From contig NZ_PTJS01000001.1 of assembly GCF_002941025.1 (NCBI RefSeq), forward strand, positions 62,001-126,000: a stretch of 64,000 bases of DNA. Reading direction: 5' to 3'. Numbering within the stretch: position 1 is the first letter of the stretch; every line of letters starts with the position of its first letter. Under the pieces are notes generated by a model. That model was not told the DNA's origin, did no database searches, and saw only the letters and a list, made by a program, of their open reading frames with translations. This stretch comes from Streptomyces sp. QL37. Lineage in GTDB: Bacteria; Actinomycetota; Actinomycetes; Streptomycetales; Streptomycetaceae. Positions 1 through 59,161 of the stretch are shown here, in pieces. A program made the translations under genes and the position numbers.

Positions 1-732
1 CGTGACGTCCTCATCGAGGGCGTCACCGTCCGCAACTCCCCGATGTGGAACATCCATCCGGTCCTGTGCACCAATGTCACCGTCCGCGGTGTGACCGTGG
101 ACAGCCCGGTCGGCCCCAACAACGACGGTGTCGACCCCGAGTCCTGTTCCTACGTCCTCATCCAGGACTGCCTCTTCGACACCGGCGACGACTGCATCGC
201 CTTCAAGGCGGGCAAGAACACCGACGGGCGGCGGGTCGGCGTGCCCATGCAGCACGCCCTGGTCGAGCGCTGCGAGATGCGCGACGGCCACGGCGGCGTG
301 ACCATCGGCAGTGAGACCTCGGGCGGCGTCTCTGACATCGTCGCGCGGGACTGTGTGATGGACAGCCCTCGCCTCGACCGGGCCATCCGTCTCAAGTCCA
401 GTCCGCTGCGCGGTGGTTACATCCGCGACGTACTGTGCCACGACATCACGGTGGGCGAGGTCGGTGACGCGGTCGTGGAGATCGCCCTCGACTACGAGCG
501 TGTGGAGACCGGCGACTTCTATCCCGATGTGCGCGACATCGCGATCCACCGGGTCACCACCACGGCGGGGCCCCGCGCCTGGACCTTCATCGGCAACGAC
601 GCGAACCCGATCCGCGACGTGCTGCTGAGCGACTGTGTCTTCGACGGCATGACGGGGCCGAACGAGCAGCGGAACATCGAGGGCCTGGTCCTGCGCCGCG
701 TCACGATCAACGGCCAGGAGGCGTCGTCTTGA
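1..732 (+). CDS. GH28 polygalacturonase-family glycosidase, C-terminal part (5' end outside window)
   Basis: The first 243 codons in the window are an open frame ending at TGA 730-732; the start lies upstream. The fragment carries the right-handed beta-helix core of family GH28: NNDGVDPESC at about residues 40-50, GDDCIAFKAG about 25 residues later, GHGGVTIGSE, and RLKSSP. These match the family's catalytic NTD, DD, GHG and RIK motifs, so the enzyme should hydrolyse galacturonic-acid-containing glycans (pectin backbone). It is a close relative of the next gene and of the one at 34363. It overlaps the next gene by 4 bp (TTGA), so both are probably one operon with the acetyltransferase-like fusion at 2062. 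Whether it has a signal peptide cannot be seen. Exact substrate (homogalacturonan, rhamnogalacturonan or a side chain) is not readable from the sequence. Confidence 0.9.
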   Translation, partial: RDVLIEGVTVRNSPMWNIHPVLCTNVTVRGVTVDSPVGPNNDGVDPESCSYVLIQDCLFDTGDDCIAFKAGKNTDGRRVGVPMQHALVERCEMRDGHGGVTIGSETSGGVSDIVARDCVMDSPRLDRAIRLKSSPLRGGYIRDVLCHDITVGEVGDAVVEIALDYERVETGDFYPDVRDIAIHRVTTTAGPRAWTFIGNDANPIRDVLLSDCVFDGMTGPNEQRNIEGLVLRRVTINGQEASS

Positions 733-2081
733 CGGGCCCGACGCACGCCCCCGGCGCGGCGGGGGTGCCCCGGGATCCTTGGCGCGAGGCCGACGCGGTC
801 GTCGCCCGCGTCGTGCCGCCCCGGTTTCCCGGCCGTACCTTTCCGGTGACCTCGTTCGGAGCGATCGGCGACGGCCGGACCGACTGCACGTCGGCGCTCC
901 GGCGCGCGGTGGCCGCCTGCCACTCGGCGGGGGGCGGGCGGGTCGCCGTTCCTCCGGGGGTCTTCCTCACCGGCCCCGTGCGGCTGCGCAGCCATGTCGA
1001 ACTCCACCTGGAGGAGGGCGCCACGCTGCGCTTCAGCCAGGACCCGGATCGTTACCTGCCGCCGGTGCTCACCCGTTTCCAGGGCGTCGAGTGCTACGGC
1101 TACTCCCCGTTCGTCTACGCCCGGGACGAGCGTGACATCGCGGTCACGGGTCCCGGGACCCTGGACGGCCAGGCCGACGAGGAGCACTGGTGGCCGTGGT
1201 CGGGCCAGGAGGAGTTCGGCTGGCGGCCCGGTATGCGTCACCAGGAGGAGGACTGGCCGGACCTGTGGCGACAGGCCGAGGACGGTGATCCGGTCGAGCA
1301 GCGGGTGTACGCCGACGGGCGGTACTTCCGGCCGAACTTCATCGAGTTCCAGCGGTGCCACGGCGTCCTGATCGAGGGCGTGACGATCGTCCGGTCCCCC
1401 ATGTGGGAGATCCACCCGGTGCTGTGCGGCAACGTCACCGTCCAGGACGTCGTCATCGACAGCCCCGGACCCAACAACGACGGCATCGACCCCGAGTCCT
1501 GCCACGACGTCGTGATCCGGCGCTGCGACATCACGGCGGGGGACGACTGCATCGCCATCAAGTCGGGCCGCGAGGCCGACGGGCGCCGCGTGGCGACGCC
1601 CAGCGAGAACATCGTGATCGAGGACTGCGTGCTGCGCCACCGCTACGGGGCGGTCACGCTGGGCAGTGACATGACCGGAGGCATCCGCAACGTGTACGTA
1701 CGCCGCTGCCGCGTCGGCGGCCCCGGCCTCTACTTCGGCCTCTACATCAAGACGAACTCGGTACGCGGCGGCTTCGCCGAGAACGTCCATCTCGCGGATC
1801 TCACGGTCACGCACCTCACCAAGGAGTTCATCACCTGCGACTTCGAGCGGGGAGAGGGGGACGCGGGGGCGTACCCGCCTCGGGTACGGAACGTCAGCGT
1901 GAGCCGGACGACGGTTGAGCGGGCGCGCCGCGGTGTCCTGGCCCGCGGCTACGCGCACGCTCCCATCCGTGAACTGCGGCTGGAGGAATGCCACTTCGTG
2001 AATCTCGCGGAGGACGACATCGTCGAGCACGTGGACGGATACGTGAGGGAGAAGGTGACCGGTGGGTCCGACGGACGGTGA
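729..2081 (+). CDS. GH28 family glycosidase, apparently cytoplasmic
   Basis: This 450-residue GH28 protein starts at TTG 729, overlapping the stop of the previous gene; a GTG at 765 is the main alternative. The N-terminus has no hydrophobic or twin-arginine segment, so it is probably intracellular and works on imported oligogalacturonides or pectin side chains. The N-terminal VTSFGAIGDGRTDCT segment (about residues 38-52) is typical of pectate-lyase-like beta-helix starts. Catalytic motifs are NNDGIDPESC (about 250-260) and GDDCIAIKSG (about 270-280), with YIKTNSVRGG near 340 in place of RIK. The usual GHG histidine is missing: the segment reads RYGAVTLGSD near 305. It may therefore be an exo-acting or rhamnogalacturonan-type member. 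The gene overlaps the next one by 20 bp. Confidence 0.88.
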   Translation: MTGPTHAPGAAGVPRDPWREADAVVARVVPPRFPGRTFPVTSFGAIGDGRTDCTSALRRAVAACHSAGGGRVAVPPGVFLTGPVRLRSHVELHLEEGATLRFSQDPDRYLPPVLTRFQGVECYGYSPFVYARDERDIAVTGPGTLDGQADEEHWWPWSGQEEFGWRPGMRHQEEDWPDLWRQAEDGDPVEQRVYADGRYFRPNFIEFQRCHGVLIEGVTIVRSPMWEIHPVLCGNVTVQDVVIDSPGPNNDGIDPESCHDVVIRRCDITAGDDCIAIKSGREADGRRVATPSENIVIEDCVLRHRYGAVTLGSDMTGGIRNVYVRRCRVGGPGLYFGLYIKTNSVRGGFAENVHLADLTVTHLTKEFITCDFERGEGDAGAYPPRVRNVSVSRTTVERARRGVLARGYAHAPIRELRLEECHFVNLAEDDIVEHVDGYVREKVTGGSDGR

Positions 2082-3741
2082 GACGCGCCCCGGACGGTAC
2101 GACTACTGCCCGTGGGAGTTCTGGAGCAGGAGCGACGAGGAGGAACGGGCCGCCCAGCTGTCCCACCAGGCGGCGCTCGTGCGGCGTTCCGAGGCGGACG
2201 GGGGCACGGCGGAGTTCGGTGACCGGGTGTTCGTGTCGCCGTGGGCGGGGGTTCACACCGACTCCCTGCGGCTCGGCGACCGCTCGTACATCGGGGCGCA
2301 CGCCGTGGTCACCGACGAGGTCGTCATGGGTCGCAACTGCACGCTCAACCCGTTCTCCACGGCACGTGGCAAGGTCGTGATGGGGGACGGTGTACGGGTG
2401 GGGGCGCACACCTCGCTGCTCGGCTTCAACCACGGTTTCGCCCCGCACGAGCCGGTCCACCGACAGCCCCTCGTCTCGAAGGGCATCGTTCTCGGCGACG
2501 ACGTCTGGATCGGCTCGCACGCCGTCGTCGTGGACGGGGTGACCATCGGCGACCACTGTGTCGTCGGGGCGGGCGCGGTCGTCACGAAGGACCTGCCGGC
2601 CTGGTCGGTGGCGGCGGGCAGCCCGGCGCGCCGGCTGCGCGACCGGCGGGACACCGCCCCGGCGGGCCCGCGTGCGCCGTCGGTGTCCGGGTCGCCGGCG
2701 GGCAGCCTGGACGCCCGGCTGGAACGCTTCGCGCGACGCGCCGGGGAGCAGGCGGGTGAGGTCCTGGGGCGCTGCCGTACGGACGGTTCCTGGACGGAAC
2801 GTCCCGGGGCCGCGCCGACGGTGCGCGCCGTGTGCGACGCGGTGGAGATCGCGGACCTGCTGCTGGGCGGTCCCCCGCCCGGCGAGGACCGTGACGCGCT
2901 GGTGGAGCGGCTGCGTGCCCTCCAGGATCCGGAGACGGGTCTGGTGCCGGAGTTCGGGCGGCCCGCCCCGTCCCTCGACGACCACAGCGCGATGTACCAC
3001 ATCCTCTGCGCCGGCTACGCGCTCGAACTGCTCGGCTCGCGCTTCGCGCACCCTGTGCGGGCGGTCACCGAGCTGCCTGCGGAGCGGCTGGTGGAACGTC
3101 TGGACGGCCTGCCGTGGCGGACCGAGGCCTGGCGCAGCGGCAACTGGGTGGACGGTGTCGCCACCGCGTTGCACTTCGCCTCCCCCGCCGCCTCGCCGCA
3201 GACCGAGGCGCTGTTCGGCTGGCTGCTGACGCGGGCCGACCCCCGGCACGGTCTGTGGGGCGCCCCGGACGCGAAGGAGGGGTGGCGGCAGCCGGTGAAC
3301 GGTTTCTACCGGACGTCGCGCGGGTCCTTCGCGCAGTTCGGGCTGCCCGTGCCGTATCCGGAGCGGACCGTGGACACCGTGCTCGCCCACAGCCTCGACC
3401 CGGCGTGGTTCGGCCCGGACCGCGGGACGGCGTGCGATGTCCTCGACGTCATCCATCCGCTGTGGCTCTGCGCCAGGAGCACGGGGCACCGGCTCGGCGA
3501 GGGCCGGGACTGGGCCCGGGGGCAGCTGGAGCGGGTTCTGACCCGGTGGCAGGACGGGGCCGGGTTCTCCTTCGCCCTGGAGCCCGGGGAGCGGCCGGAC
3601 CGTCTCGCCGGACTCCAGGGGACGGAGATGTGGCTCGCGGTCACCTGGCTCCTCGCCGACCACCTCGGGGCCGGCGAGGCGCTCGGCTACCGCCCGAGGG
3701 GGGTGCACCGGCCCGAGCCGGCGCGCACGGGACTCGGCTGA
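2062..3741 (+). CDS. Acetyltransferase (left-handed beta-helix) fused to an alpha/alpha-toroid-like domain
   Basis: The protein has 559 residues from GTG 2062. Residues about 45-200 show hexapeptide-repeat sequence (IGAHAVVTDEVVMG, VVMGDGVRVGAHTSL, IVLGDDVWIGSHAVVVDGVTIG, VVGAGAVVTKDLP, then SVAAGSPARRL). This is the signature of left-handed parallel beta-helix O-acetyltransferases of the maltose/galactoside acetyltransferase type, with the histidine of LLGFNHGFAPHEP as a likely catalytic base. From about residue 215 to the end it becomes alpha-helical with repeated W-rich segments (TEAWRSGNWVDGVATALHFA, LWGAPDAKEGWRQPVNGFYRTS) like terpenoid-cyclase or six-hairpin glycosidase toroids. I do not recognise this fusion. 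It lies in the GH28 operon and has no signal peptide, so it could modify or process imported pectic sugars. The 3' end overlaps the convergent gene at 3687 by 55 bp. Confidence 0.8.
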   Translation: MGPTDGETRPGRYDYCPWEFWSRSDEEERAAQLSHQAALVRRSEADGGTAEFGDRVFVSPWAGVHTDSLRLGDRSYIGAHAVVTDEVVMGRNCTLNPFSTARGKVVMGDGVRVGAHTSLLGFNHGFAPHEPVHRQPLVSKGIVLGDDVWIGSHAVVVDGVTIGDHCVVGAGAVVTKDLPAWSVAAGSPARRLRDRRDTAPAGPRAPSVSGSPAGSLDARLERFARRAGEQAGEVLGRCRTDGSWTERPGAAPTVRAVCDAVEIADLLLGGPPPGEDRDALVERLRALQDPETGLVPEFGRPAPSLDDHSAMYHILCAGYALELLGSRFAHPVRAVTELPAERLVERLDGLPWRTEAWRSGNWVDGVATALHFASPAASPQTEALFGWLLTRADPRHGLWGAPDAKEGWRQPVNGFYRTSRGSFAQFGLPVPYPERTVDTVLAHSLDPAWFGPDRGTACDVLDVIHPLWLCARSTGHRLGEGRDWARGQLERVLTRWQDGAGFSFALEPGERPDRLAGLQGTEMWLAVTWLLADHLGAGEALGYRPRGVHRPEPARTGLG

Positions 3742-5744
3742 GCGGACGGGCGGGACCGCATCCGCAGCACCTGGGACAGCACCTGGGCGGTGACCCAGGA
3801 CGGGTTCCAGGTGTTGCTGTTTCCACGGTCCTGCCAGTTGGTGGGGAAGAACCCCTCGGCCTGCTCGCCCGGTCCCTCGAAGCCCCATTCCCCGGGCCGG
3901 GTGCAGACGCCCTGTCCGAAGGCGTTCAGGACCAGCTCTCCCAGCTCGCGGTAGACCGGCCGTTCCACCAGGTCTCCCAGGCGGGCGAGTTCGTACGCCG
4001 GGAAGAACACGTCGACGTGGTGGTTCTGGACGCTGACACCCGGCCAGCCGGTGGTGGCGAACCCGTGCTTGAAGGGTGGGTTCCACTGGTAGACCCAGGT
4101 GAGGAGCCAGTCGGCGGCCTCCTGGGCGCGGGTGCGCCACCGCTCCGCGCCGGTGAGCCTCAGCAGCTCGTACGCGCACAGGAAGTAGGCCATGCCCCCT
4201 TCCTTGTCCTCGCAGGCGGCGTCGAGGGTGGCGCGTGCGAAGGGGGTCGCGTAGTCGTCGGCGTAACGCCGGTGGTAGTCGTCCACGAGTGCCTCCGCCC
4301 CGCGGAGCAGGTCCTGCTCCCCCGTGACGCGGTGGGCCTTCAGCATCGCCAGTACGCAGGGCAGGCCGGCCGTCCCCGGGAACGAGGCGAGGGGGGATCC
4401 GTCCGGACGCCAGCCGAAGGGGGGCGGGCCGTCGCCGCAGGCGGCCCGCACACCTTCGGTGAGCGCCCGCACCCATGTGTCGGGGACGTCGATTCCGTGC
4501 AGGCGGAAGAGACGCACGATGTCGGCGAGGTCGCAGAGGTTGTCGCCGAGGGCGCGGGCCGAGACGTACGGCCCCTCCTCCCCGTCGAACCCTGTCCAGG
4601 TGCGGTCCTCGGTGGCGTAGAAGCTCAGGCGCAGTCCCGGGGCGCCCGGGAGCGAGCTGCCCGCGAGGTAGAACTCGACGGCCCGGCGGCAGCGTTCGAC
4701 GCGCCCCGGTTCGTCGTTCTCGACACCCAGGCGGGCGTCGCACCAGGCGAGCCGAAGGCTCTGCCCGGTCCACCCGTACATGAAGCCGGGGGTGTGGCCG
4801 GGGCCGACGAACTTCAGGTAGCCGGCGGCGTCGCCGTCCTCGTGCCAACGCCGGTCGAGCGCTGCCGTCTTGAGCCGTACGAGTTGGTCCAGGGACAGCG
4901 GGCTCGCTCCGCGCGGCCGGTACAGGGCGCGGCCGCGGTGCACGAGCGCCCGGAAGCCGTGGCCGGGCCGGGCGGGGTGTCCCCAGTCCAGGGCGTGATG
5001 GGCGTGGTACTCGGTGCCGGGCGCGAGATCGCGGTACCCCTCCTCGCAGGGCGCGGTGCGGGACTTGTGCACGTAGGCCGTGTCGGGGCGCCCGTCGAAC
5101 AGCAGCGCTCCGCTCACACCGAGCAGGGTCACCCCCTCGGGGCGGTGTGTCGCGCCGAGGGAGCCCGGCCCGGGGCGAGCGGCGTAGAGGGTGGCATACC
5201 GGCTCCGGCCGTCCGCCTCCCACTCCGCGTGCGCACAGGGGACGGGCAGCCGGTGGTCCTCCACGACGAGACCGCCGTTGTCCGCCGCGAGACGCGGGAC
5301 GGTGCGTCCGGGGTCGGCCGACGGATTGCCCCGGTAGAGGACCTGGGGCAGGGTGACCGCTTCGGGCCGCAGGGAGGGCAGCGGCAGTGCGATGCCCAGC
5401 ACGGCGTCCGCGCGTGGTGTTCTGCCGGTATTGCGCCAGGCGGTCCGCAGGTGCAGCAGACCGTCCTCGAACACCAGGGAGAGCGATACCTCGAGTCCGG
5501 GGTGGCCGGCGAGGGTGCAGCGGGCCTCCAGGCCGTCCCCGGCGCGCGCGAGCGCACAGGAGCGCACGCCGGGCCTGGAAGGCCCCCAGGGACGCCCCAG
5601 GGACACCACGAACAGATCGTCCAGCGGGAGGTCGAGGAGGCCGCCCCCCTCCCCCGCGGTGTGTCCGAGCACCAGGTGGGGTGCCCCCTGGGCGGGGCTC
5701 TCGGTGAACTCGGCGTACCTGCGCCCGTCGTTGATCCGGAACAT
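3687..5744 (-). CDS. Unrecognised cytoplasmic protein: beta-sandwich plus alpha/alpha-toroid, candidate glycosidase
   Basis: A 685-residue protein from ATG 5744. I cannot place it in a named family. Residues 1 to about 290 look all-beta (an extended carbohydrate-binding-like sandwich). Residues about 300-680 are helical with W/Y/N-rich loops (GYLKFVGPGHTPGFMYGWTG, DAACEDKEGGMAYFLCAYELL, GWPGVSVQNHHVDVFFPAYELARL, GFFPTNWQDRGNSNTWNPSW), resembling (alpha/alpha)6 glycoside hydrolases or lyases. Acidic residues in DAACEDKEGG and the NHHVD segment are plausible active-site parts, but this is a guess. There is no signal peptide. It converges on and overlaps the end of the acetyltransferase fusion, and shares a 147-bp divergent promoter region with the binding-protein gene at 5892, where a TGGCATACCA site lies, so it may belong to the same regulon. 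Confidence 0.72.
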   Translation of the reverse strand: MFRINDGRRYAEFTESPAQGAPHLVLGHTAGEGGGLLDLPLDDLFVVSLGRPWGPSRPGVRSCALARAGDGLEARCTLAGHPGLEVSLSLVFEDGLLHLRTAWRNTGRTPRADAVLGIALPLPSLRPEAVTLPQVLYRGNPSADPGRTVPRLAADNGGLVVEDHRLPVPCAHAEWEADGRSRYATLYAARPGPGSLGATHRPEGVTLLGVSGALLFDGRPDTAYVHKSRTAPCEEGYRDLAPGTEYHAHHALDWGHPARPGHGFRALVHRGRALYRPRGASPLSLDQLVRLKTAALDRRWHEDGDAAGYLKFVGPGHTPGFMYGWTGQSLRLAWCDARLGVENDEPGRVERCRRAVEFYLAGSSLPGAPGLRLSFYATEDRTWTGFDGEEGPYVSARALGDNLCDLADIVRLFRLHGIDVPDTWVRALTEGVRAACGDGPPPFGWRPDGSPLASFPGTAGLPCVLAMLKAHRVTGEQDLLRGAEALVDDYHRRYADDYATPFARATLDAACEDKEGGMAYFLCAYELLRLTGAERWRTRAQEAADWLLTWVYQWNPPFKHGFATTGWPGVSVQNHHVDVFFPAYELARLGDLVERPVYRELGELVLNAFGQGVCTRPGEWGFEGPGEQAEGFFPTNWQDRGNSNTWNPSWVTAQVLSQVLRMRSRPSAQPSPVRAGSGRCTPLGR

Positions 5745-5813
5745 TTACAACTCCCATATCTGTAGGGACTGTTGACCGCATCTATCGTCAGGTGAACCAT
5801 TGTGGCATTCGCC

Positions 5814-5823
5814 TGGCATACCA
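5814..5823. promoter_or_regulatory. TGGCATACCA operator-like site (copy 1)
   Basis: TGGCATACCA flanked by CC and GT, 68 bp before the binding-protein start at 5892 and 70 bp from the divergent start at 5744. A partial copy (TGTGGCATTC) sits 13 bp to the left. The same 10-mer recurs at 18240 and 23883, and a symmetric version at 23533, each time in front of genes of this locus. It is inferred to bind the GntR/FCD protein encoded at 23963. Confidence 0.6.
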
Positions 5824-5891
5824 GTGGCGTTCCTTCGCCGATCGCGTCTCTCCGACCGTCGGCGCTCCCCCTCCGAAGGAGAGGCACCCGC

Positions 5892-7376
5892 ATGACCTCA
5901 CAACCGCAGCAGAGCGAACAGCCGCCGCCCAGCCGACGGAAGTTCGTCGGCGGTGCCGCCGCGGCGGTGGGCGCGGCCGCGCTCACCGGCGTCACACTCG
6001 GCGCGTCCGCTCCGGCTCAGGCTCGTCCGGCCACCGGGCGGGCAGCGGCGGCCTCTTCGGCCGCCACCTGCACCGTCATCCCGAACAAGTACGGCGAGCC
6101 GTTCGAAGTCTGCGACGACGAGCTGTTCATCTTCATGGCCAACTACAAGCCCTTCGAGAACCCGGGCTTCTTCGACACGGTCATCGGCGACGCGATGCGC
6201 GCGGCCTTCCCTGGGGTCAAGATCAAGGCGGTGGCCTGGGACCAGCCCGTGCGGTACGAGGACCTCGAGAAGGCCGGTGTCGTACCCGACATCATCCTCG
6301 AGGACCCCCGCCGGCGTATCGACCGCGACCTGGAACCGCTCGGCTGGACCCGCGATCTCACCGAGGACCTCCGCACCACCGGCATCGACCTCGGCTCGCT
6401 CAACCCGGCCGCGGTCGCCACGATCAAGGCCCGCTCGGACGGCGGGATGTACGGCGTTCCCGTGTTCGTGGACGAGTACGTCATGTTCCACAACAAGAAG
6501 ATCTTCGACATGAAGGGACTGAGAACACCGGCCAACGGCGTCACCTACGACGAGGCGTTCCGCCTCGCCAAGAAGCTGACCTTCGAGAAGAACCTGGTGG
6601 CGTACAAGGGGTATCTCCAGCACCCGGACCTCTACCTGGAGTTCAACCAGCTGGGGCTGTACCCGTTCGTGCCGGGCCCGGGCGGGACGCCTGCGCCCGA
6701 GGACGTGAAGGTGAACATCACCTCGGAGGGCTGGCAGCGGCTCGGCAGCAACCTGGAGCGCTTCCTGCTCCACCCCCACAACATCTTCACCACGGTGGAC
6801 GACTACCTGCTGACCGGCCATGTGGCCATGGCGGTCGACAGCCTCTGGAAGCTCAACGCCTACGCTCTCAGCCCTCTGTACCTCCAGGAGGACGACGCCG
6901 AGGAGTGGCGCGGGCTCGCCGACGGCATCGAACTGGGCATCACGTCCGTGCCGGTCCTCGGCAGCGGCGACAACGCGGTCTACCAGCCCAACAGCATCGC
7001 GGCGTTCCTGCCCCCGCAGTCGGCCAAGAAGGCCCAGGCCCTCCAGGTCCTCAAGTGGCTGGTGTCCCAGGAGGGGCAGGTCGAGCTGGCCCGGCACGGA
7101 ATGAAGCCAGCGCTGCGCTCGCGCGCCGTCGAGGCGGCCTTCGGGACAGCGATCCCCGAGCTCGACGGGATCGACACCTCGGCGGTCTTCTGGGGGGACA
7201 ACGCCGTCCTGCAGAACTACGAGAACACCGAGTACTGGGACCTGCCCATGTACTCGGTGTTCCGGCAGCACGTCCTCCAGGACGGTCTGAGGGTCTCCTC
7301 GGCACTGAAGGTCACCGAGACGGTCGACATCCCCGCCTACATCAAGTCGCAGGTGGCGGCCGGCTTCGACTGGTGA
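5892..7376 (+). CDS. Secreted ABC-transporter sugar-binding protein (family 1), orphan
   Basis: I chose ATG 5892 (494 residues), which follows an AAGGAGAGG ribosome-binding site; longer upstream starts lack one. The N-terminus has a twin-arginine motif (SRRKFVGG) and an alanine-rich hydrophobic stretch ending in APAQA, so it is a Tat export signal. No lipobox cysteine is present, which is unusual for a Gram-positive binding protein that must stay at the membrane. The mature part fits the extracellular solute-binding family 1 (MalE-like), with an inner half GVPVFVDEYVMFHNKKIFD and a C-terminal NSIAAFLPPQSAKKAQALQVLKWLV. No permease genes adjoin it, so it must use a distant or shared transporter. 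It ends 1 bp before the end of the convergent gene at 7378. A TGGCATACCA site lies 68 bp upstream. Confidence 0.87.
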   Translation: MTSQPQQSEQPPPSRRKFVGGAAAAVGAAALTGVTLGASAPAQARPATGRAAAASSAATCTVIPNKYGEPFEVCDDELFIFMANYKPFENPGFFDTVIGDAMRAAFPGVKIKAVAWDQPVRYEDLEKAGVVPDIILEDPRRRIDRDLEPLGWTRDLTEDLRTTGIDLGSLNPAAVATIKARSDGGMYGVPVFVDEYVMFHNKKIFDMKGLRTPANGVTYDEAFRLAKKLTFEKNLVAYKGYLQHPDLYLEFNQLGLYPFVPGPGGTPAPEDVKVNITSEGWQRLGSNLERFLLHPHNIFTTVDDYLLTGHVAMAVDSLWKLNAYALSPLYLQEDDAEEWRGLADGIELGITSVPVLGSGDNAVYQPNSIAAFLPPQSAKKAQALQVLKWLVSQEGQVELARHGMKPALRSRAVEAAFGTAIPELDGIDTSAVFWGDNAVLQNYENTEYWDLPMYSVFRQHVLQDGLRVSSALKVTETVDIPAYIKSQVAAGFDW

Positions 7377-7377
7377 G

Positions 7378-10872: not shown

Positions 10873-10876
<4 letters not shown>
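9770..10876 (-). CDS. Sialidase-fold (BNR repeat) putative glycosidase, cytoplasmic
   Basis: A 368-residue six-bladed beta-propeller of the BNR/sialidase superfamily. Three Asp-box motifs are visible: SHDRGRTW (about 133), STDAGRTW (about 225) and SDDDGRTW (about 304). The N-terminal region GDSHAASLLELDDGDVLCAWF takes the place where true sialidases have RIP and an arginine, so it is unlikely to be a classical neuraminidase. Related folds act on Kdo/Dha-like acids or rhamnose-uronic acid linkages in plant glycans. It has no signal peptide. It overlaps both neighbours by 4 bp and sits between a NanA-type aldolase/transporter set and an apiosidase-like enzyme, which suggests a plant acidic sugar as substrate. 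Annotation as exo-sialidase would be only by fold. Confidence 0.78.
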
Positions 10877-11921
<1,045 letters not shown>

Positions 11922-11925
<4 letters not shown>

Positions 11926-48782: not shown

Positions 48783-48794
48783 ACGCCCACCCGG

Positions 48795-48828: not shown

Positions 48829-48831
48829 TTC

Positions 48832-52854: not shown

Positions 52855-54023
52855 AGTGCTCCCCGCGCGGACAGCGAGCGCATCAGGTCGGCGAGACCGA
52901 AGGTCCACGGCTCGCACGCTTCGCTCGCCCTGATCCGGTTGACGAGCGCGCCGAGCCGGGGCGTCGCGATGGTGACCAGGTCACCGTCGTGATGGGTGAA
53001 TCCCTGACCCGGCGTGTCGCGGTCCTCCACAGGGGCGAACATCGTGCCGAGGTACAGCACCGCGCCGTCGGGGTACCGGTGGTGCGGCCCGGTCAACTGG
53101 GCCGCGAGGTCGAGGGGATCGCGGCTGATGGCGGACATCGAGGACACGGCGTCGAGCCGGTACCCGTCGTCGCCCTCGACGGTCAGCGTCACCGCTGCCT
53201 TGCGCACGTCCTCGATACCGAAACCGGGCTCGAACAACCGCACGAACGGACCGAGTGCCGCCGAGGCGTTGTTGTCCTTCGCCTGGGGCAGGAGCAGCGC
53301 GGAACGGCCCTCCACGTCGCGGAGGTTGACGTCGTTCCCCAGCGTCGCGCCGACGACCTCCCCGGCGGAGGACACGACGATCACCACCTCCGGCTCGGGG
53401 TTGTTCCACCGCGACGCGGAGTGCACCCCGGCATCGGTGGCGCTGCCGACCGCGGCCAGCACGGGGGCCTTGGTGAAGATCTCGGCGTCCGGGCCGATGC
53501 CGACCTCCAGGTACTGGCTCCACACCCCCTGGGCGACCAGGATCTCCTTCAGCGCGGCGGCCTCCTCGGAGCCGGGTCGCAGAGAGGCGATGTCGTCCCC
53601 GATGAGCCCTCGGATACGCTCCCGTGCCTCGGAGGCCCCGGAGGCGTCGCCGCGTACCCTCTCCTCGATCACGCGCTCCAGCATCGACACCACGAAGGTG
53701 ACCCCGGCGGCCTTGACAGCCTGGAGATCCACCGGGGCCAGCAGCCAGGGCAGTTCCGGATCGCGCGTGTCGGGCGGGGTGTTGGCGAGAAGCTCGTCGA
53801 GCCCTGCGACGCGCTCGCCGTCGGCCGCACGCAACTTCCTTGCGGGCTCCGGCGTTTCACAGAGATCCCGTACGGTCGCGAAGTGGGCGGTCACGTCGTG
53901 GACACCGCTGTCACGGACGGCGACGACGGAAGGGCCGAGACCGGGTCGCCAGACCCGTCCGACGAGGGCACCCTCGGTTCCGTCCTCCGGCAGGGTGGCG
54001 GCGGCGTCGGGCCACTGGTTCAT
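52851..54023 (-). CDS. Fumarylacetoacetate hydrolase-family protein (XylX-like 2-keto-3-deoxy-pentonate dehydratase candidate)
   Basis: 390 residues from ATG 54023. The C-terminal FAH fold has the metal-binding and signature stretch EPEVVIVVSSAGEVVGATLGNDVNLRDVEGRSALLLPQAKDNNASAALGPFVRLF (about 215-270), preceded by SQYLEVGIGPDAEIFTKAPVL. Length and the GNDVNLRD/AKDNNAS pattern resemble XylX-type enzymes that dehydrate 2-keto-3-deoxy-xylonate or -arabinonate to alpha-ketoglutarate semialdehyde; smaller FAH relatives hydrolyse 2,4-diketo-3-deoxy-L-fuconate or -rhamnonate. Either would complete a non-phosphorylative sugar pathway. It is coupled to LacI downstream and lies 10 bp after the enoyl-CoA hydratase gene. 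Confidence 0.85.
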   Translation of the reverse strand: MNQWPDAAATLPEDGTEGALVGRVWRPGLGPSVVAVRDSGVHDVTAHFATVRDLCETPEPARKLRAADGERVAGLDELLANTPPDTRDPELPWLLAPVDLQAVKAAGVTFVVSMLERVIEERVRGDASGASEARERIRGLIGDDIASLRPGSEEAAALKEILVAQGVWSQYLEVGIGPDAEIFTKAPVLAAVGSATDAGVHSASRWNNPEPEVVIVVSSAGEVVGATLGNDVNLRDVEGRSALLLPQAKDNNASAALGPFVRLFEPGFGIEDVRKAAVTLTVEGDDGYRLDAVSSMSAISRDPLDLAAQLTGPHHRYPDGAVLYLGTMFAPVEDRDTPGQGFTHHDGDLVTIATPRLGALVNRIRASEACEPWTFGLADLMRSLSARGAL

Positions 54024-54033
54024 GTCGTTCCTC

Positions 54034-54840
54034 TCAGCGTTTACGGAAGACGGGCGGACGCTTCTCGGCGAACGCGCGGCGGCCTTCGGCGGCGTCCTCG
54101 GTGGCGAAGCAGATGGTCTGCAGGTCCCGCTCGTAGGCGAGGGCCTGGTCCTCGGGCAGGTTTCCGGCGGCCCGAAGATTGATCTTCGCGGTCTCGGCGG
54201 CCACCGGGGCCCGGGAGGCGATCACGGCGGCGAGAGCGCGGGCCCGGTCGAGCAGCTTCTCGGGGGCCACCACCTCGCTGACCAGGTGCCACGCCAACGC
54301 CTTTGCGGCGTCGATGCGTTCACCGCTGAGCAGCATGAGTGCGGCGTTGCTCGGGCCCGCCGCACGGTCGAGGAAGGCGGCCATGCCGCCACCGCCGATC
54401 CAGCCGAGCGTGATCTCGGGTGCGCCGAAGGAGGCGGTTTCCGAGGCGATGCGGATGTCGCAGGAGAGCGCGGTCTCCAGTCCGCCGCCGAGGGCGTAGC
54501 CGCCGACCGCGGCGATGGTCGGGGTGCGGGCCTCGCGGATGGCGTCGCAGTAGTCGACGCGGTTGCGGAACTCCCATGGAGTCCGGTAGCCGTCCAGTTC
54601 ACGGATGTCCGAGCCTGCGCTGAAGGCGCGTCCGCCGGAACCGGTGACGACCAGGGCGCGGACGTCGTCGGTGGTGTCGCACCATTCGACGGCCCGGACC
54701 AGCGCGCGGGACATCTCGGGGGTGACGGCGTTGAGCTTCTCGGGCCGGTTGAGGGTGAGAGTGGCCACGCGGCCGGCGACGTCGAGCAGCACATGCTCGG
54801 TGCCGAGGCCGGGCGGGGTACTGGTGGTGGTGTCGTTCAT
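54034..54840 (-). CDS. Enoyl-CoA hydratase/isomerase-family protein
   Basis: 268 residues from ATG 54840, overlapping the upstream stop by 4 bp. Crotonase motifs are present: oxyanion-hole AFSAGSDIREL (about 65-75) and YALGGGLETALSCDIRIASE (about 105-125) with a glutamate, and APEITLGWIGGGG with the second glutamate (about 135). So it should be catalytically competent on an acyl-CoA. It sits between a CaiB/BaiF CoA-transferase gene and an FAH gene, an uncommon setting for a sugar locus, and suggests that a sugar-derived acid is turned into a CoA thioester. Confidence 0.9.
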   Translation of the reverse strand: MNDTTTSTPPGLGTEHVLLDVAGRVATLTLNRPEKLNAVTPEMSRALVRAVEWCDTTDDVRALVVTGSGGRAFSAGSDIRELDGYRTPWEFRNRVDYCDAIREARTPTIAAVGGYALGGGLETALSCDIRIASETASFGAPEITLGWIGGGGMAAFLDRAAGPSNAALMLLSGERIDAAKALAWHLVSEVVAPEKLLDRARALAAVIASRAPVAAETAKINLRAAGNLPEDQALAYERDLQTICFATEDAAEGRRAFAEKRPPVFRKR

Positions 54841-55931
54841 GCTCGTCCTTCCTTCGCTTTCCGGCTCGTCCGGTACAGCGCGCGCATCCGGTCGAGCGCC
54901 GCCCGGTGGCCGGTCTCCTTGGCGAGTGCGTCCCGCACGACGGCGGACGCCGCGGCCTGGAAGCCGATGTAGCCGGGGTGGCGGGGCCGGACCCAGGCTT
55001 GTTCGCAGGTGGCGGTGGTGCGGCGGTAGAAGTCCGCGGCGACGATCGCCGGATCGGCCCACGCGGCGCGCGCACTGGGCTGCCCCCGGTGCTGCGGCAG
55101 GAAGTCGCACTGGGCGGACGGAGACATCAACCAGCGCATGTGGTCCAGGAGTTCGGGTCCGGGTGTACAGCGGGAGCTGACGGCGAGCCCGGTGCCGCCG
55201 AGGGTGGATCCCGGGCGGCCCCCCGGCCGCGCCGTAGGGGCGTCGGTGAAGGCCAGCCGGTCCGCGTAGGTCACATAGCCGTAGACCAGGGGGCAGTGCG
55301 CGAGCCGGTCGGTGCGCGACATCAGCTCGAGCAGGCCGATCGGGTTGAGGGTACGCGTGGAGGCCGGGGCGGCGGAGTCGACGGCCGCCATCAGGTCGAG
55401 CGCCGCCAGTCCGGTCCCGTCACCGATCAGCTCGTCCGGGTCCGCGGCCGGCTCCTCCCCCAGCGCGACCGCGACGGAGGCGAAGGTGAGGAACGCGTGC
55501 GGCCCCGCGAGTGACAGCGCCACCGGTGCCCGCCGGGACAGGCTCCGGACCTCGTCCCAGGTCGCGGGCGCCTCTCCGGCGAGGTCGGTACGGGTGGCCG
55601 CGACCTGGGTGGCCGCGTCCAGCGGGAGCGCCCACTGCCTGCCGTCCATCGCGTACGAACGCATGGTGGGGCCGATCGCACCGGTGCGCCAGAGGTCCAG
55701 TTCCTCGGGGGCGAACAGGTCGTCAAGTGGTAGCAGACATCCGGCTTCCAGTGCCTCGCCGAGGTGCGGATGGTCGAGCACGACGAGGTCGTAGCGGGCG
55801 CAGAGCTCGGGGACGGGGTGGGACTCGAACCCTTCCAGCGGCTGGACGGACCAGTGCACGAGGTCACCCCCCGAAGCCGCCAGGGCATCGTGGCCACGCG
55901 GGTGGTCCCACGTCAGTCCGGCGTAGGTCAC
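54837..55931 (-). CDS. Solute-binding-protein-like protein with no signal peptide, in a CoA-transferase operon
   Basis: 364 residues from GTG 55931, overlapping the CoA-transferase stop by 4 bp (GTGA). It is a paralogue of the protein at 29224: [87 protein letters not shown] and PRHPGYIGFQAAASAVVRDAL all have counterparts there. The fold is that of family-1 extracellular binding proteins, but there is no signal peptide or lipobox, and the start is fixed by the overlap. It is therefore almost certainly cytoplasmic. Fixed linkage with CoA-transferase and enoyl-CoA hydratase genes suggests a metabolic or ligand-delivery role. Confidence 0.8.
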   Translation of the reverse strand: MTYAGLTWDHPRGHDALAASGGDLVHWSVQPLEGFESHPVPELCARYDLVVLDHPHLGEALEAGCLLPLDDLFAPEELDLWRTGAIGPTMRSYAMDGRQWALPLDAATQVAATRTDLAGEAPATWDEVRSLSRRAPVALSLAGPHAFLTFASVAVALGEEPAADPDELIGDGTGLAALDLMAAVDSAAPASTRTLNPIGLLELMSRTDRLAHCPLVYGYVTYADRLAFTDAPTARPGGRPGSTLGGTGLAVSSRCTPGPELLDHMRWLMSPSAQCDFLPQHRGQPSARAAWADPAIVAADFYRRTTATCEQAWVRPRHPGYIGFQAAASAVVRDALAKETGHRAALDRMRALYRTSRKAKEGRA

Positions 55932-57136
55932 GAGGTCTCCGCCACGGTTCCGGAGGCGAACAGATCCTCGATTGCCCGGTCGTCGAGGCCCACTTCGGCG
56001 AGGATCTCACGGGTGTGCTCGCCGGTGAGCGGGGCGCCACGGTCGATGCGCGGCGGGGTCGCGGAGAATCTGTAGGGGAAGCCGGGCACCTTCACGCGAC
56101 CCTCGGTGGGGTGGTCGTAGGTGACGAAGGTGCCGTTGTGCCGGATCTGGGGATCGTCGACCAGGTCCGCGTAGCCGTAGACCGGGCCGGCCCAGATGCC
56201 GGCTGTTTCGAAGGCGTCGAGCCAGTGGCGCGAGGGCCTGGTCAGCAGGCGGGTCGCTGTGCGGGCGAAGATCTCGTCGCGGTGGGTCCAGCTGTGTTCC
56301 TCGTCCTCCATGGAGAGGAAGCTGTCCTCGCCCAGGATCTCGCCCAGCTTCTTCAGCGGGGGGAACGCGAGGACGATGAAACCGTCAGCGGTCTGGAAGG
56401 CGCCGTAGGGCGCGCGGATGTAGACGTGTGCGTGGGGTTCGTCGGAACGGGACTGTGCCAGCCCGCCGACGGTGTGCACCGAGAGTTCCTGCATCTGCAG
56501 GGTCGTGATCGCGTCCAGCATGTTGACCGTCACGAGCTGCCCCTCGCCGGTGCGTTCGCGGTGCAGCAGCGCGGCGAGCACGCCCTCGAAAGCGGTGGAC
56601 GCGGTGACTGCGTCCACGAGGTACTGGCCTGCGGCGCGGGGAGCCTCGCCGGCCCGGCCGGTGGAGAGCATGGCGCCGGACATCGCCTGGAGCAGCAGGT
56701 CCTGGCCGGGCCGTTGGGCGTACGGGCCGTCCTCGCCGTAGCCGGAGATGGAGACGTACACGAGGGACGGGTTGATCTCGGCCAGCGAGGCATGGTCGAC
56801 GCCGAGCCGGGCGGCGACTCCGGGCCGGTAGTTCTGCAGGAACACGTCCGCGTCGGCCACCAGCCGGCGCAGCACCTCCTTGCCTGCCGGATCCTTGAGG
56901 TCGACGGCGAGCGAGCGCTTGTTGCGGTTGAGCGACAGGAAGGACACGTTGATCCGGTTGCCGCCCGCGCCACCGGCCGCGGCGTGCCGCTGCCACTCGC
57001 CGGTGACGGGCTCGACCTTGACCACGTCGGCGCCGAGGTCGCCGAGCCGCTGCGCCGCGAAGGGGCCGGCCATGGCGATGGAGCAGTCGAGGACCCGGTA
57101 CCCGGCGAGTATGCCGGGCTTGTCGCGCGTAGTCAT
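55928..57136 (-). CDS. CaiB/BaiF family (class III) CoA-transferase
   Basis: 402 residues from ATG 57136. The family features are clear: ILAGYRVLDCSIAMAGPFAAQRLGDLGADVVKVEP at the N-terminus, NRNKRSLAVDLKDPAGKEVL, VFLQNYRPGVAARLGVDHASL, SISGYGEDGPYAQRPGQDLLLQAMSG, the catalytic aspartate in GQYLVDAVTA (about 176), and the C-terminal lobe with THRDEIFARTATRLL. It moves CoA between carboxylic acids. As the first gene of the operon it would activate an acid for the enoyl-CoA hydratase. The natural acid here is unknown; a sugar-derived 3-deoxy or keto acid is an inference from context. Confidence 0.9.
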   Translation of the reverse strand: MTTRDKPGILAGYRVLDCSIAMAGPFAAQRLGDLGADVVKVEPVTGEWQRHAAAGGAGGNRINVSFLSLNRNKRSLAVDLKDPAGKEVLRRLVADADVFLQNYRPGVAARLGVDHASLAEINPSLVYVSISGYGEDGPYAQRPGQDLLLQAMSGAMLSTGRAGEAPRAAGQYLVDAVTASTAFEGVLAALLHRERTGEGQLVTVNMLDAITTLQMQELSVHTVGGLAQSRSDEPHAHVYIRAPYGAFQTADGFIVLAFPPLKKLGEILGEDSFLSMEDEEHSWTHRDEIFARTATRLLTRPSRHWLDAFETAGIWAGPVYGYADLVDDPQIRHNGTFVTYDHPTEGRVKVPGFPYRFSATPPRIDRGAPLTGEHTREILAEVGLDDRAIEDLFASGTVAETS

Positions 57137-57350: not shown

Positions 57351-58097
57351 ATGAAGCAACAGCAAGCCGCACTCGTGACGGGTGCCGGCGGCGCCCTGGG
57401 CCGGGCGATAGCCTCACGCCTGGCCGCCTCGGGACACGATGTCGCCGTACTGGACCGCGACACGGCCTCGTTGAAGGAGACCGTCGAGCAGGTGGAGGGA
57501 GCGGGCGCCCGGGCGCTGGCGCTCGCCACCGACCTGCGCGACCCGCAGGCGATCGAGGACGCCGTCGACCGGACCGCTGCCGAGCTCGGCACGCTGGGCG
57601 TCCTGGTCAACAACGCCGCCGTGTACCCGAGCCGGCCGTTCCTCGAGGTGCCGCTCGCCGAGTACGAGGAGGTGGTGGCGGTCAACCAGCGCGCCTACTG
57701 GGTCGCCGCGCAGGCCGCCGCACGCCGCATGAGCGCCACCGGGGGCGGGGCGATCGTCAACGTCGCGTCGATCACCATGCACGGGGGCTGGGACTCGCTC
57801 GCCGCGTACGTCTCGACCAAGGGCGCCGCCGTCGCGCTCACGCGTGCCCTGGCCCGGGAACTGGGACCGGCGGAGATTCGCGTCAACTGCGTCTCCCCCG
57901 GGGCCTTTCCCACCGCGGCCGAGGAGATCCACGAGGATCCCGATGCCTACCGGCGCCATGTGCTGGAGCGTCAGTCCCTGAAGCGGCGCGGCCGCCCCGA
58001 TGAACTGGCCTCGGTGGTCTCCTTCCTCGCCGGACCCGATGCCTCCTTCGTCACCGGCCAGTGCATCGAGGTCAACGGAGGGTGGGTGATGTCGTGA
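57351..58097 (+). CDS. Short-chain dehydrogenase/reductase, sugar or sugar-acid dehydrogenase
   Basis: 248 residues from ATG 57351. Motifs: nucleotide-binding TGAGGALGRAIA (about 9-20), NNAAV (about 84), catalytic Ser in NVASITMHGG, and YVSTK (Tyr and Lys about 149-153), then NCVSPGAFPT. It uses NAD(P)+. Possible roles are sugar 1-dehydrogenase (as the XylB-type SDR does in XylX pathways) or 2-keto-3-deoxy-L-fuconate/rhamnonate 4-dehydrogenase, the step before a FAH-type hydrolase. The next gene, a sugar epimerase-like protein, overlaps it by 4 bp. Confidence 0.9.
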   Translation: MKQQQAALVTGAGGALGRAIASRLAASGHDVAVLDRDTASLKETVEQVEGAGARALALATDLRDPQAIEDAVDRTAAELGTLGVLVNNAAVYPSRPFLEVPLAEYEEVVAVNQRAYWVAAQAAARRMSATGGGAIVNVASITMHGGWDSLAAYVSTKGAAVALTRALARELGPAEIRVNCVSPGAFPTAAEEIHEDPDAYRRHVLERQSLKRRGRPDELASVVSFLAGPDASFVTGQCIEVNGGWVMS

Positions 58098-59161
58098 AGC
58101 TGAACGGACGTGACTACGACCGCCAGGCCCTCGCGCGGCTCGCCGGCGACCTGAGCGCGGCCGGCGGCGTGCGGTCCGTCGTCCTGGACGACGGTTCCGA
58201 ACGCGGCATCCGCACACTGGAGTTCCGTACCGGTGCGGGTCTCTCCTTCGACGTTCTCGTGGACCGGGCCATGGACCTGGGCGGGGCGGAGTTCGAGGGC
58301 CGCGGCTTCGGCTGGCGTTCGGCGACCGGGTTCCGCCATCCCGGTCTGCACGAGTACCGGGACGACGACGGCCTCTCGATGATGCGCAGCTTCTCGGGAC
58401 TCCTGCTCACCGCGGGCCTCGACCACACACTCTTCGGCGCCGAGGTGGACGCCTCCCAGTACCGCTATCCCCCGCGGCGCACGGTGTCGCACGGGCTGCA
58501 CGGGCGGGTCGCCAACCTGCCCGCCCGGCTGACCGGTTACGGCGAGCAGTGGCAGGACGACGGCCGCTGCGTGCTGTGGGCCGAGGGCGAGGTCCGCCAG
58601 GCCGCGATCTTCGGGGAGCACCTGCGGCTCACCCGTCGGATCGAGGCAGATCTCGGCGGCACGGAGATCCGGCTCACCGACCGGGTGCGAAACGCGGGCT
58701 TCGACGCCACACCGCACATGTACCTGTACCACATCAACATCGGCTGGCCCTTCCTGGACGAGGGCGCGCGTTACGAGATGCCTGTGCGCCGCACACGGTG
58801 GCAGAGCGACAGTGTCGCCGAGCAAGGTGTGTCGAACACCGCGATGCCTGGCCCGCGGTCGGGGTTCGTCGAGCAGGTCTACGAACACGAGCTGGAGCCG
58901 GACTCCGACGGACGGGTCCGGCCCCGCCTGGTGAACGAACGTCTCGGCGTGTACTTCGAGTTGGAGTACGACGCCACACAGTTCCCCGCCTTCTTCCAGT
59001 GGCTGCATCTGCGCGAGGGCGCGTACGCGGTGGGCTTCGAGCCGTCCACCCACCATGTGGAGGGCGAGACCGCGGCACGGGAGAACGGTTCCATGACGTT
59101 CCTGGCTCCCGGTGAGGAACGCACGTACACGACCACCTTCAGAGTGGGGCGGCTCGGCTGA
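58094..59161 (+). CDS. DUF4432-family (aldose 1-epimerase-like) protein
   Basis: 355 residues from GTG 58094, overlapping the SDR stop (GTGA). It is a galactose-mutarotase-like beta-sandwich: IRTLEFRTGAGLSFDVLVDRAMDLGGAEFEGRGFGWRSATGF, GLDHTLFGAEVDASQYRYPPRRTVSHGLHGRVANLPARL, EIRLTDRVRNAGFDATPHMYLYHINIGWPFLDEG and FEPSTHHVEGETAARENG. Histidines in HGLHGR and YHINIGWP are likely catalytic or binding residues. DUF4432 proteins are found in sugar operons and presumably equilibrate anomers or bind sugars. With the SDR it forms a two-gene unit facing the CoA operon, both probably controlled by the LacI palindrome. Confidence 0.85.
   Translation: MKLNGRDYDRQALARLAGDLSAAGGVRSVVLDDGSERGIRTLEFRTGAGLSFDVLVDRAMDLGGAEFEGRGFGWRSATGFRHPGLHEYRDDDGLSMMRSFSGLLLTAGLDHTLFGAEVDASQYRYPPRRTVSHGLHGRVANLPARLTGYGEQWQDDGRCVLWAEGEVRQAAIFGEHLRLTRRIEADLGGTEIRLTDRVRNAGFDATPHMYLYHINIGWPFLDEGARYEMPVRRTRWQSDSVAEQGVSNTAMPGPRSGFVEQVYEHELEPDSDGRVRPRLVNERLGVYFELEYDATQFPAFFQWLHLREGAYAVGFEPSTHHVEGETAARENGSMTFLAPGEERTYTTTFRVGRLG

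Follow-up and report, generated by a model that had tools for sequence, protein, structure and literature searches.

Which polysaccharide is served by the pectin-related locus near one end of the main contig of Streptomyces sp. QL37, and by which enzymes? The window, the whole 64,000-nucleotide stretch that was analysed, covers positions 62001-126000 of contig C1 (NZ_PTJS01000001.1), which accounts for 8.77 Mb of the 8.78-Mb genome. An earlier note had proposed that positions 1..59161 of the window encode a Gram-positive counterpart of the rhamnogalacturonan-II (RG-II) systems of Bacteroides, with ABC import in place of Sus proteins. We consider it probable, with some confidence, that the window holds most of a catabolic island of ~82 kb for an apiose-bearing complex pectin, most likely RG-II, with a triad of genes, Api, psApi and U685, as its hallmark. 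Feature coordinates are window positions, negative ones lying to the left of the window, and gene content was read from open reading frames (ORFs) together with Pfam and NCBIfam scans.

The breakdown of RG-II is known in detail from gut Bacteroides (PMC12282258, PMC7939467). Such loci have also been noted in organisms from broader niches, and a Verrucomicrobium GH139 has been studied (PMC12282258); a soil fungus degrading RG-II is cited in PMC12168206. A limited literature search brought up no account of RG-II being used by Streptomyces, by other actinobacteria or by Paenibacillus.

The Api-psApi-U685 triad

The triad consists of the following genes.

3687..5744, minus strand: U685, uncharacterised family (ORF, alignment, 80 loci)
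7378..8355, minus strand: psApi, paralogue of Api without the catalytic glutamates, DUF5605 C-terminus (Pfam, alignment)
8352..9773, minus strand: Api, DUF5060 - PF13204 (Apiosidase) - DUF5605, both glutamates, candidate apiosidase (Pfam, PDB, alignment)

U685 and psApi, like LbHaa (2062-3741) and U489 (40415-41860) described below, were not listed in the earlier note, from which the triad was absent. A genome scan with a U685 alignment (A1, the window protein and 58 of 61 homologues, P0007, P0051 and P0058 being left out) returned at least 80 loci; every count out of 80 below is among those loci, with 10-kb flanks. Their ORFs were filtered by length, overlap and conservation, and genus names and two-copy status were assigned by hand. 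The triad is conserved across actinobacteria and Paenibacillus in these loci. Api keeps both glutamates, one in an NE and one in a DE motif, in the window and in 31 of 32 two-copy loci; in the remaining one, L071, they lie on two separate ORFs. In psApi the nucleophile glutamate is absent from all 34 sequences (32 two-copy loci, L026 and the window), being replaced by D, A, G, H, V or M or deleted, and the acid/base column holds a glutamate in three of the 34 (L028, L047, L071), without the NE motif. Judged from its sequence, psApi is predicted to be a catalytically dead twin of Api.

The position of psApi relative to U685 varies. Most Kribbella loci have U685 starting at the end of psApi; in Streptomyces a binding-protein gene on the opposite strand lies between the two. 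The metagenome protein P0051 carries a psApi-type domain, with A and D at the catalytic positions, fused to U685, and is the only one of 46 matches that also matches the U685 profile. Most likely, psApi has no catalytic role and instead recognises apiose as a partner of U685, which would carry the chemistry. A more specific proposal is that U685 and psApi form a two-part glycosidase, in which the dead apiosidase duplicate presents an apiose-linked stub to U685 for cleavage next to the apiose, and that the island is the first Gram-positive, plasmid-borne and complete RG-II system; as a whole we hold this to be speculative and rather doubtful.

U685 has no Pfam, NCBIfam or significant PDB match. 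Among 59 members of the family, weak matches to six-hairpin families were found (GH76 in 6, GH88 in 5, GH127 in 3, AGE in 2), and the protein probably consists of an N-terminal beta domain and an (alpha/alpha)6 toroid in an unclassified family. Its relatives (93% identity in a Streptomyces) and the plasmid matches described below point to Streptomyces as the source. A scan of 394 genomes of the class matched 16, three of them full-length and strong and 13 partial or weak.

Homology to gut-bacterial systems was measured against three RG-II-type Bacteroidales loci rather than against B. thetaiotaomicron itself; they are three of the five strongest GH141_M loci, and 15 of 149 Bacteroidales genomes matched GH141_M. 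The profiles of Api, psApi, U685, cl8, U489 and LbHaa had no match in the three loci at E 0.01. The triad as such was absent from the gut-bacterial clusters compared here.

Api and the GH140 apiosidases

The earlier note expected the DUF4038 protein, Api, to belong to GH140. Api does match PF13204 (E 1.2e-20, 74.8 bits against a cut-off of 26.5), and no PF12904 match was found in it by Pfam. The combination of PF13204 and PF12904 is what we take to be the GH140-type architecture. PF13204 is thus shared with GH140 beta-apiosidases, whereas Api differs from them in its DUF5060/DUF5605 architecture and its lack of PF12904. The sole PDB match of Api at E 0.01 is 4n0r (E 3e-99 over ~400 residues), with no GH140 chain among the matches; DUF5060 proteins of the 4n0r type are like Api in sequence, and 4n0r itself is named only 'putative glycoside hydrolase'. 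The Api profile had no match in the Bacteroidales loci at E 0.01, despite the presence there of a protein with PF13204 (375 bits) and PF12904. Assignment of Api to GH140 was therefore rejected.

Conservation of the cassette

In the window the triad adjoins a BNR protein and a complete oligopeptide-type (Opp) importer.

9770..10876, minus strand: BNR_2 protein, candidate enzyme releasing 3-deoxy-D-manno-octulosonic acid (Kdo) (Pfam, profile comparison)
10873..11922, minus strand: OppF ATPase, start approximate (ORF reading, plasmid orthologue)
11922..12962, minus strand: OppD ATPase (Pfam/NCBIfam)
12972..14129, minus strand: OppC permease (Pfam/NCBIfam)
14136..15137, minus strand: OppB permease (Pfam/NCBIfam)
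15156..17168, minus strand: OppA, solute-binding protein (SBP) family 5 (Pfam/NCBIfam)

OppABCDF, its transport role being predicted, adjoins glycosidases that lack export signals. At least three of OppB, OppC, OppD and OppF were found in 28 of the 80 loci. BNR is present in all 28, and Api together with psApi in 25, from Streptomyces, Streptosporangium, Actinopolymorpha, Kribbella, Auraticoccus, Desertihabitans, Nonomuraea, Microlunatus and Ruania. Seven Paenibacillus loci have Api and psApi, and a further group in this genus has U685 with GH95, GH2, GH42 and GH106.

Api is missing from only three Opp cassettes (L064, L066, L069), and each of their genomes encodes a GH140 match (364-374 bits), whereas in two Api-bearing genomes searched alongside the best GH140 match reached 41 bits. 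In L069, from Pseudactinotalea, neither Api nor psApi was found and a GH140-type protein (367 bits) directly follows U685; the Api-less genome G913 also has a distant PF13204 protein (68 bits; 72 bits to the Api profile). Because a GH140 homologue occurs in all three Api-less and neither of the two Api-bearing genomes, these five genomes suggest that Api and GH140 may fill the same role.

Extent of the island and its plasmid copy

Comparison of the left flank with relatives indicates that the locus does not start at position 1, as first proposed, and continues to about -22,660; it thus spans C1:39,340-121,161, the left extension adding ~22.7 kb to the part in the window. This extension contains the N-terminus of GH28a, cl8 (601 aa, uncharacterised), a zinc alcohol dehydrogenase, a RuBisCO-like protein (RLP) and a DUF1537-type kinase; the glycosidases GH78, GH2 (LacZ type), GH42, GH29 and a second GH78, the last named from its plasmid orthologue; and, besides these, an aldo/keto reductase and a further DUF1537 kinase, together with PdxA and a DeoR regulator, both likewise named from the plasmid. 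The DUF1537 kinase, PdxA and DeoR genes at the left end (L100:13340-16424) resemble a threonate-type pathway. The right end in common with the plasmid lies at the SDR and DUF4432 genes (57351..59161). Tandem DUF4140/DUF4139 genes (59112-62902, plus strand) to the right of the locus have no relation to the pectin finding.

The plasmid in question is the linear plasmid NZ_CP108139.1 (267 kb) of Streptomyces sp. NBC_00184, which carries the same locus at 76,286-161,279. Counterparts of 54 of its 59 genes are found in the locus of QL37, at 60-96% identity and in nearly the same order, GH28c having moved. The remaining five make up a single operon, with counterparts here (73-87%) at C1:422.7-428.5 kb, 0.3 Mb from the locus. 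The second dehydratase and the first signal-less binding protein of the window have no separate plasmid counterpart. RLP and cl8 also lie ~1.2 kb apart on plasmid NZ_CP108854.1 of Streptomyces NBC_00841, and in a plasmid search cl8 was found on two plasmids only. Because of the synteny with NZ_CP108139.1 and the RLP/cl8 pair on NZ_CP108854.1, the locus is an island, situated on a chromosome arm here and on plasmids elsewhere.

Candidate routes of apiose catabolism

Pathways of D-apiose catabolism, by OiaK/OiaX and by AplK/AptA/AptB, were reportedly described by Carter et al. in 2018. The best NCBIfam models for RLP and the adjoining DUF1537 kinase are OiaX (E 2e-118, 395.6 bits) and OiaK (E 3e-76, 256.9 bits), respectively. 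When AplK, AptA, AptB and the SorC-type regulator of E. coli SE15 were compared with the 59 proteins of the plasmid copy, all four matched a single operon (41, 44, 38 and 38% identity). In a search of the whole genome the best match of AptA was the copy of this same operon (45%, 234 bits), the next reaching 34% and 117 bits. The kinase and two transketolase genes are contiguous both on the plasmid and at C1:422.7-428.5 kb here. No apiose-isomerase model matched the TIM-barrel protein of the plasmid, whose best NCBIfam model is xylose isomerase, at only 92 bits against a cut-off of 447; its label as an apiose isomerase is for this reason a presumption. Owing to the OiaX/OiaK-like pair and the AplK/AptA/AptB-type operon, the genome appears to hold two candidate routes for apiose, one in the island and one 0.3 Mb away, which on the plasmid lies inside the island.

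As in the known D-apiose pathways, an RLP adjoins a DUF1537 kinase, and the split transketolase, FGGY kinase and SorC-type regulator match those of E. coli SE15; in contrast to them, the genes lie inside a pectin locus, their scores stay under the NCBIfam equivalog cut-offs and no apiose-isomerase model is matched. RLPs decarboxylate 3-oxo-isoapionate-4-phosphate in D-apiose catabolism (PMC6302742). A further study counts the pathway as present if five or more of ten genes, aplK, aptA and aptB included, fall inside a span of ten genes; growth of E. coli was also tested there (PMC13001218). OiaX or OiaK was found within 10 kb of U685 in 13 of the 80 loci. Among 392 Streptomyces genomes, with both searches at E 1e-60, U685 is present in four and an OiaX-like gene in five, three genomes being shared (hypergeometric P 4e-6).

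Predicted backbone and side-chain enzymes

The remaining genes in the left part of the window are as follows.

1..732, plus strand: GH28a, 3' part (Pfam; N-terminus left of the window, in L099; Tat motif on plasmid orthologue)
729..2081, plus strand: GH28b, no signal peptide seen (Pfam, heuristic)
2062..3741, plus strand: LbHaa, hexapeptide acetyltransferase fused to an uncharacterised C-terminal half (Pfam)
5802..7376, plus strand: SBP1, extracellular solute-binding protein, Tat-type motif, stands alone (Pfam, heuristic)
17159..18169, minus strand: DHDPS-family aldolase/dehydratase (Pfam, NCBIfam)
18364..20655, minus strand: PelZ-type pectate lyase, exported (heuristic) (NCBIfam)
20755..21972, minus strand: alpha/beta-hydrolase-like esterase, exported (heuristic) (ORF reading, plasmid orthologue)
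21983..23503, minus strand: CE8 pectin methylesterase, exported (heuristic) (Pfam, plasmid orthologue)
23963..24691, plus strand: GntR regulator (plasmid annotation, 96% to plasmid orthologue)
24703..26634, plus strand: GH127, no signal peptide seen (Pfam, PDB)
26642..29071, minus strand: GH95, exported (heuristic) (Pfam, plasmid orthologue)
29224..30417, minus strand: binding-protein-like protein, start uncertain, paralogue SBPc2 without visible signal peptide (Pfam, plasmid)
30679..32559, minus strand: beta-helix protein, GH141-like at the margin, exported (heuristic) (Pfam, PDB, plasmid)
33081..34307, plus strand: regulator with extra N-terminal helix-turn-helix and GntR-FCD, start uncertain (Pfam, plasmid)
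34363..35766, plus strand: GH28c, exported, Tat motif (heuristic) (Pfam, plasmid)

The Pfam, NCBIfam and ORF readings agree with the gene list of the earlier note (three GH28, PL1, CE8, esterase, GH127, GH95, the DUF5060/DUF4038 and BNR proteins, two beta-helix proteins and an aldolase). The PelZ-type lyase, which we take to be PL1, matches its NCBIfam model with E 3e-37 and 128 bits, below the cut-off of 840 bits. A Pfam scan gave no match for the esterase, in which Tat export was called by the heuristic described below and a serine motif was recognised by eye. GH95 contains the catalytic domain PF22124 (E 1e-165). The PDB chain nearest to GH127 is a GH127 beta-L-arabinofuranosidase, the scores being 391 bits for 4qjy, 312 for 3wkw and 289 for 5mqo. 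The last is presumably BT1003, and its place below the other two speaks against an aceric-acid hydrolase of the BT1003 type.

The expected placing of the BNR and beta-helix proteins in GH33 and GH141 was not upheld in that form. The best solved sialidase scores 29.5 bits with BNR, a weak match compared with the 266-291 bits of the BNR profile to the GH78-BNR fusions found in all three Bacteroidales loci, so that an ordinary sialidase is unsupported. The window protein is 33% identical to these fusions, and the Asp-box-like positions 133-140 and 302-309 are invariant in eight aligned sequences. The match of the beta-helix protein at 30679-32559 to PF21231 (GH141_M) scores 29.7 bits, against a cut-off of 27, and spans just positions 113-156 of 156; 5mqp (BT_1002) is the protein's second PDB match (E 8e-12) after 9rx2, and the protein scores 58 bits to the RG-II-type GH141, a weak homologue in the Bacteroidales loci.

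Export was called with a simple Tat/Sec heuristic, in place of a trained predictor, on plasmid orthologues with annotated starts. By this measure the division of secreted and cytoplasmic enzymes by signal peptide, as previously described, holds: PelZ, CE8, the esterase, GH28a, GH28c, GH95 and both beta-helix proteins look exported, and no export signal is seen in GH28b, BNR, Api, psApi, U685, LbHaa, the GH78s, GH2, GH42, GH29, GH127 and U489. The C-terminal half of LbHaa comprises ~350 uncharacterised residues, and LbHaa occurs in 12 of the 80 loci. In the regulator at 33081-34307 (plus strand) an extra N-terminal HTH_29/HTH_32 unit is fused to GntR-FCD.

Comparison with Bacteroidales RG-II-type loci

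The Bacteroidales locus of G527 contains the GH140-type protein (PF13204, 375.5 bits, and PF12904), GH106, GH141, GH127, GH95, GH28, a pectate lyase, several GH2, an 892-aa protein that we take to be GH138-like, and a GH78-BNR_2-TIM fusion of 1538 aa. This triple fusion lies at L123:13581-18197 (minus strand). Across the three loci the GH78-BNR fusions measure 1273-1538 aa, the TIM part being seen by Pfam in G527 only. Proteins of the island with homologues in the three loci are GH95, the three GH28, both GH78, GH127, GH2, PelZ and BNR.

In common with the RG-II loci of B. thetaiotaomicron, the island has GH28, GH78, GH95, GH127, GH2, a PF13204 enzyme, a pectate lyase, a BNR domain and, at the margin, a GH141-like protein. 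It differs from them in that import is by ABC (Opp) instead of SusCD, the side-chain enzymes are mostly unexported, Api is not GH140, GH78 and BNR are separate proteins and no GH137/GH138-like protein was found, and in that psApi, U685, cl8, U489, LbHaa and apiose catabolism are added. In B. thetaiotaomicron, BT1012 cuts apiose from the backbone galacturonic acid and BT1001 cuts rhamnose from apiose (PMC7939467); by analogy, Api and the GH78s here would parallel BT1012 and BT1001, respectively.

The right part of the window

Between GH28c and the right end of the locus lie the following genes.

36294..37490, plus strand: MR/MLE sugar-acid dehydratase 1 (Pfam, NCBIfam, plasmid)
37487..38503, plus strand: 2-hydroxyacid dehydrogenase (plasmid annotation, NCBIfam)
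38503..39513, plus strand: aldo/keto reductase (Pfam)
40415..41860, plus strand: U489, uncharacterised family, weakly GH127-like (alignment, plasmid orthologue)
41945..44963, plus strand: SBP2 and two permeases of a sugar ABC importer, no ATPase adjoining (Pfam, plasmid)
45081..45422, plus strand: L-rhamnose mutarotase (Pfam)
45594..48782, plus strand: beta-helix protein with CBM5/12, exported (heuristic) (Pfam, PDB, plasmid)
48832..49599, minus strand: GntR-FCD regulator (Pfam)
49843..51030, plus strand: MR/MLE dehydratase 2 (Pfam, NCBIfam)
51027..51683, plus strand: ThuA-domain protein, named from plasmid annotation (plasmid)
51736..52776, minus strand: LacI regulator (Pfam, plasmid)
52851..57136, minus strand: FAH-family, enoyl-CoA hydratase, SBP-like (no signal peptide seen) and CoA-transferase III genes (Pfam, plasmid)
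57351..59161, plus strand: SDR and DUF4432 (aldose-epimerase-like) (Pfam, plasmid)

The sugar-acid catabolism named in the earlier note is represented by the two close MR/MLE dehydratases (36294-37490 and 49843-51030, plus strand), only one being present in the plasmid copy. Four regulators were likewise recovered, three of GntR type and one LacI, that at 23963-24691 from plasmid annotation. As for the two full ABC importers, Opp is complete with its ATPases, whereas SBP2 and its two permeases have no adjoining ATPase.

U489 has no Pfam, NCBIfam or significant PDB assignment. Its family comprises 189 homologues, found among others in Streptomyces, Agromyces, Paenibacillus and an Anaerolineaceae metagenome-assembled genome (MAG); its alignment (A2) holds the window protein and 75 of 120 listed homologues. 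The exported beta-helix protein at 45594-48782 (plus strand) ends in CBM5/12 (chitin-type) modules; its plasmid orthologue has 899 aa and the match stops at 48284, before the CBM5/12 region. The ABC binding-protein homologues at 54849-55931 and 29224-30417 (both minus strand) are possibly cytosolic sensors. The first has a plasmid copy that shares 43% identity with the second and shows no signal peptide by the heuristic, and one of the two shares an operon with CoA-transferase III, enoyl-CoA hydratase and FAH-family genes, without an adjoining permease.

A proposed route and the alternatives

Gene content, synteny, catalytic-residue loss, the fusion and the co-occurrence are established. The RG-II reading is strengthened by the apiose-type catabolism genes, by the homology of many island proteins to RG-II-type Bacteroidales loci, GH78-BNR fusions included, by the GH140 homologue in the Api-less genomes and by the left extension, with its two GH78s, GH2, GH42, GH29 and the OiaX/OiaK-like pair. 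We infer every substrate and activity in the following route, as well as the psApi-U685 partnership. The exported CE8, esterase, pectate lyase and two GH28s would trim the backbone; terminal L-galactose or fucose would be taken off by GH95 and the beta-helix enzyme. Oligosaccharides bearing side chains would then be imported via OppABCDF, and in the cytosol GH28b, the GH78s, GH2, GH42, GH29, GH127 (beta-L-arabinofuranose) and BNR (Kdo) may strip the chains. Api would cut apiose from the backbone galacturonate, psApi, derived from Api and devoid of its catalytic glutamates, may recognise apiose for U685, which would do the chemistry, and the apiose released may be catabolised by the OiaK/OiaX-like route and by the isomerase/FGGY-kinase/split-transketolase route.

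Apiose has two sources named in PMC6302742, RG-II and the apiogalacturonan of aquatic monocots, and a locus for the latter, an apiose-substituted homogalacturonan of duckweeds and seagrasses, or for apiosylated glycosides, would account for the apiose catabolism, GH28, CE8, the pectate lyase and Api. It is nevertheless very unlikely, leaving two GH78s, GH95, GH29, GH127, GH2, GH42, BNR and the homology to RG-II-type loci unexplained. The GH78, GH42, LacZ-type GH2, GH127 and GH28 enzymes would all suit the side chains of rhamnogalacturonan-I (RG-I), exact substrates being unreadable from sequence. We think an RG-I locus unlikely, since Pfam found no RG-I lyase, GH88 or GH105 among the window and left-flank proteins scanned, a subset of the ORFs of the locus, and since BNR is constant in the Opp cassettes and OiaX or OiaK recurs near U685; to our knowledge, neither apiose nor Kdo is part of RG-I. 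A different question is whether an RG-II-type system on the left (about -22 to 36 kb) merely adjoins an unrelated one at 36-59 kb, made up of U489, the ABC importer, the rhamnose mutarotase, the dehydratases and the CoA genes. This is compatible with the RG-II explanation for the left part, and we see it as a serious possibility, if short of even. Of the right-part proteins other than LacI and permease 2, only Per1 (nine of the 80 loci), MLE2 (two), SDR and a GntR (one each) are matched within 10 kb of U685, and U489 in none; on the other hand, flanks of 10 kb could seldom reach this part, and the two halves adjoin each other, with gene order nearly preserved, both on the chromosome arm of QL37 and on the plasmid of NBC_00184. 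A share of the right half in the function of the locus is weakly supported; the half is tied to the left almost only by this synteny.

Several points weigh against RG-II as the substrate, the sparse recurrence of the right half and the exclusion of Api from GH140 among them. No match for the GH137-like N-terminus (as we take it to be) or the 892-aa GH138-like query was found in the genome of QL37, where divergent relatives could escape; both queries work elsewhere, the 892-aa family being found in eight of the 80 loci and the N-terminus in the other two Bacteroidales loci (753 and 467 bits). The GH106s of the genome lie at 2.9 Mb, outside the locus. The Bacteroidales loci are named RG-II-type by gene content alone, with three of the 15 matching genomes compared. 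The GH139 2-O-methyl-fucosidase is described as essential for RG-II metabolism and as a feature of RG-II-degrading bacteria (PMC12282258). Neither RLP nor the kinase reaches the OiaX/OiaK equivalog cut-off (700 bits), and the genomes behind the co-occurrence are not independent. In 20 of the 80 loci no window protein other than U685 was matched, so that its family is wider than an RG-II context; 17 of them come from MAGs, some with short contigs, of Lentisphaerae, Phycisphaerae, Armatimonadetes and other groups, and they include L070, L074-L077, L079-L082, L086, L090, L091, L093, L094, L096 and L097. Finally, the Paenibacillus loci of GH95 type have eight truncated Api-type ORFs at their edge: five keep the nucleophile glutamate, one has D and two stop short of the position. 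Steps for which no enzyme was found might be carried out by U685, cl8, U489 or GH127, or degradation may be partial. RG-II breakdown with ABC import, as first proposed for this DNA, remains the best-supported reading; that idea was largely right, for partly different reasons, its family assignments not holding as given.

Significance

A portable actinobacterial island of this kind would represent a different enzyme set for the most complex pectin. It would tie uncharacterised families, namely U685, cl8, U489 and the C-terminal half of LbHaa, to an RG-II-type locus. In psApi, a predicted dead enzyme is conserved beside its live parent in actinobacteria and Paenibacillus. Both psApi and U685 are of ordinary size and have no visible signal peptide, which makes the question of their partnership directly testable.

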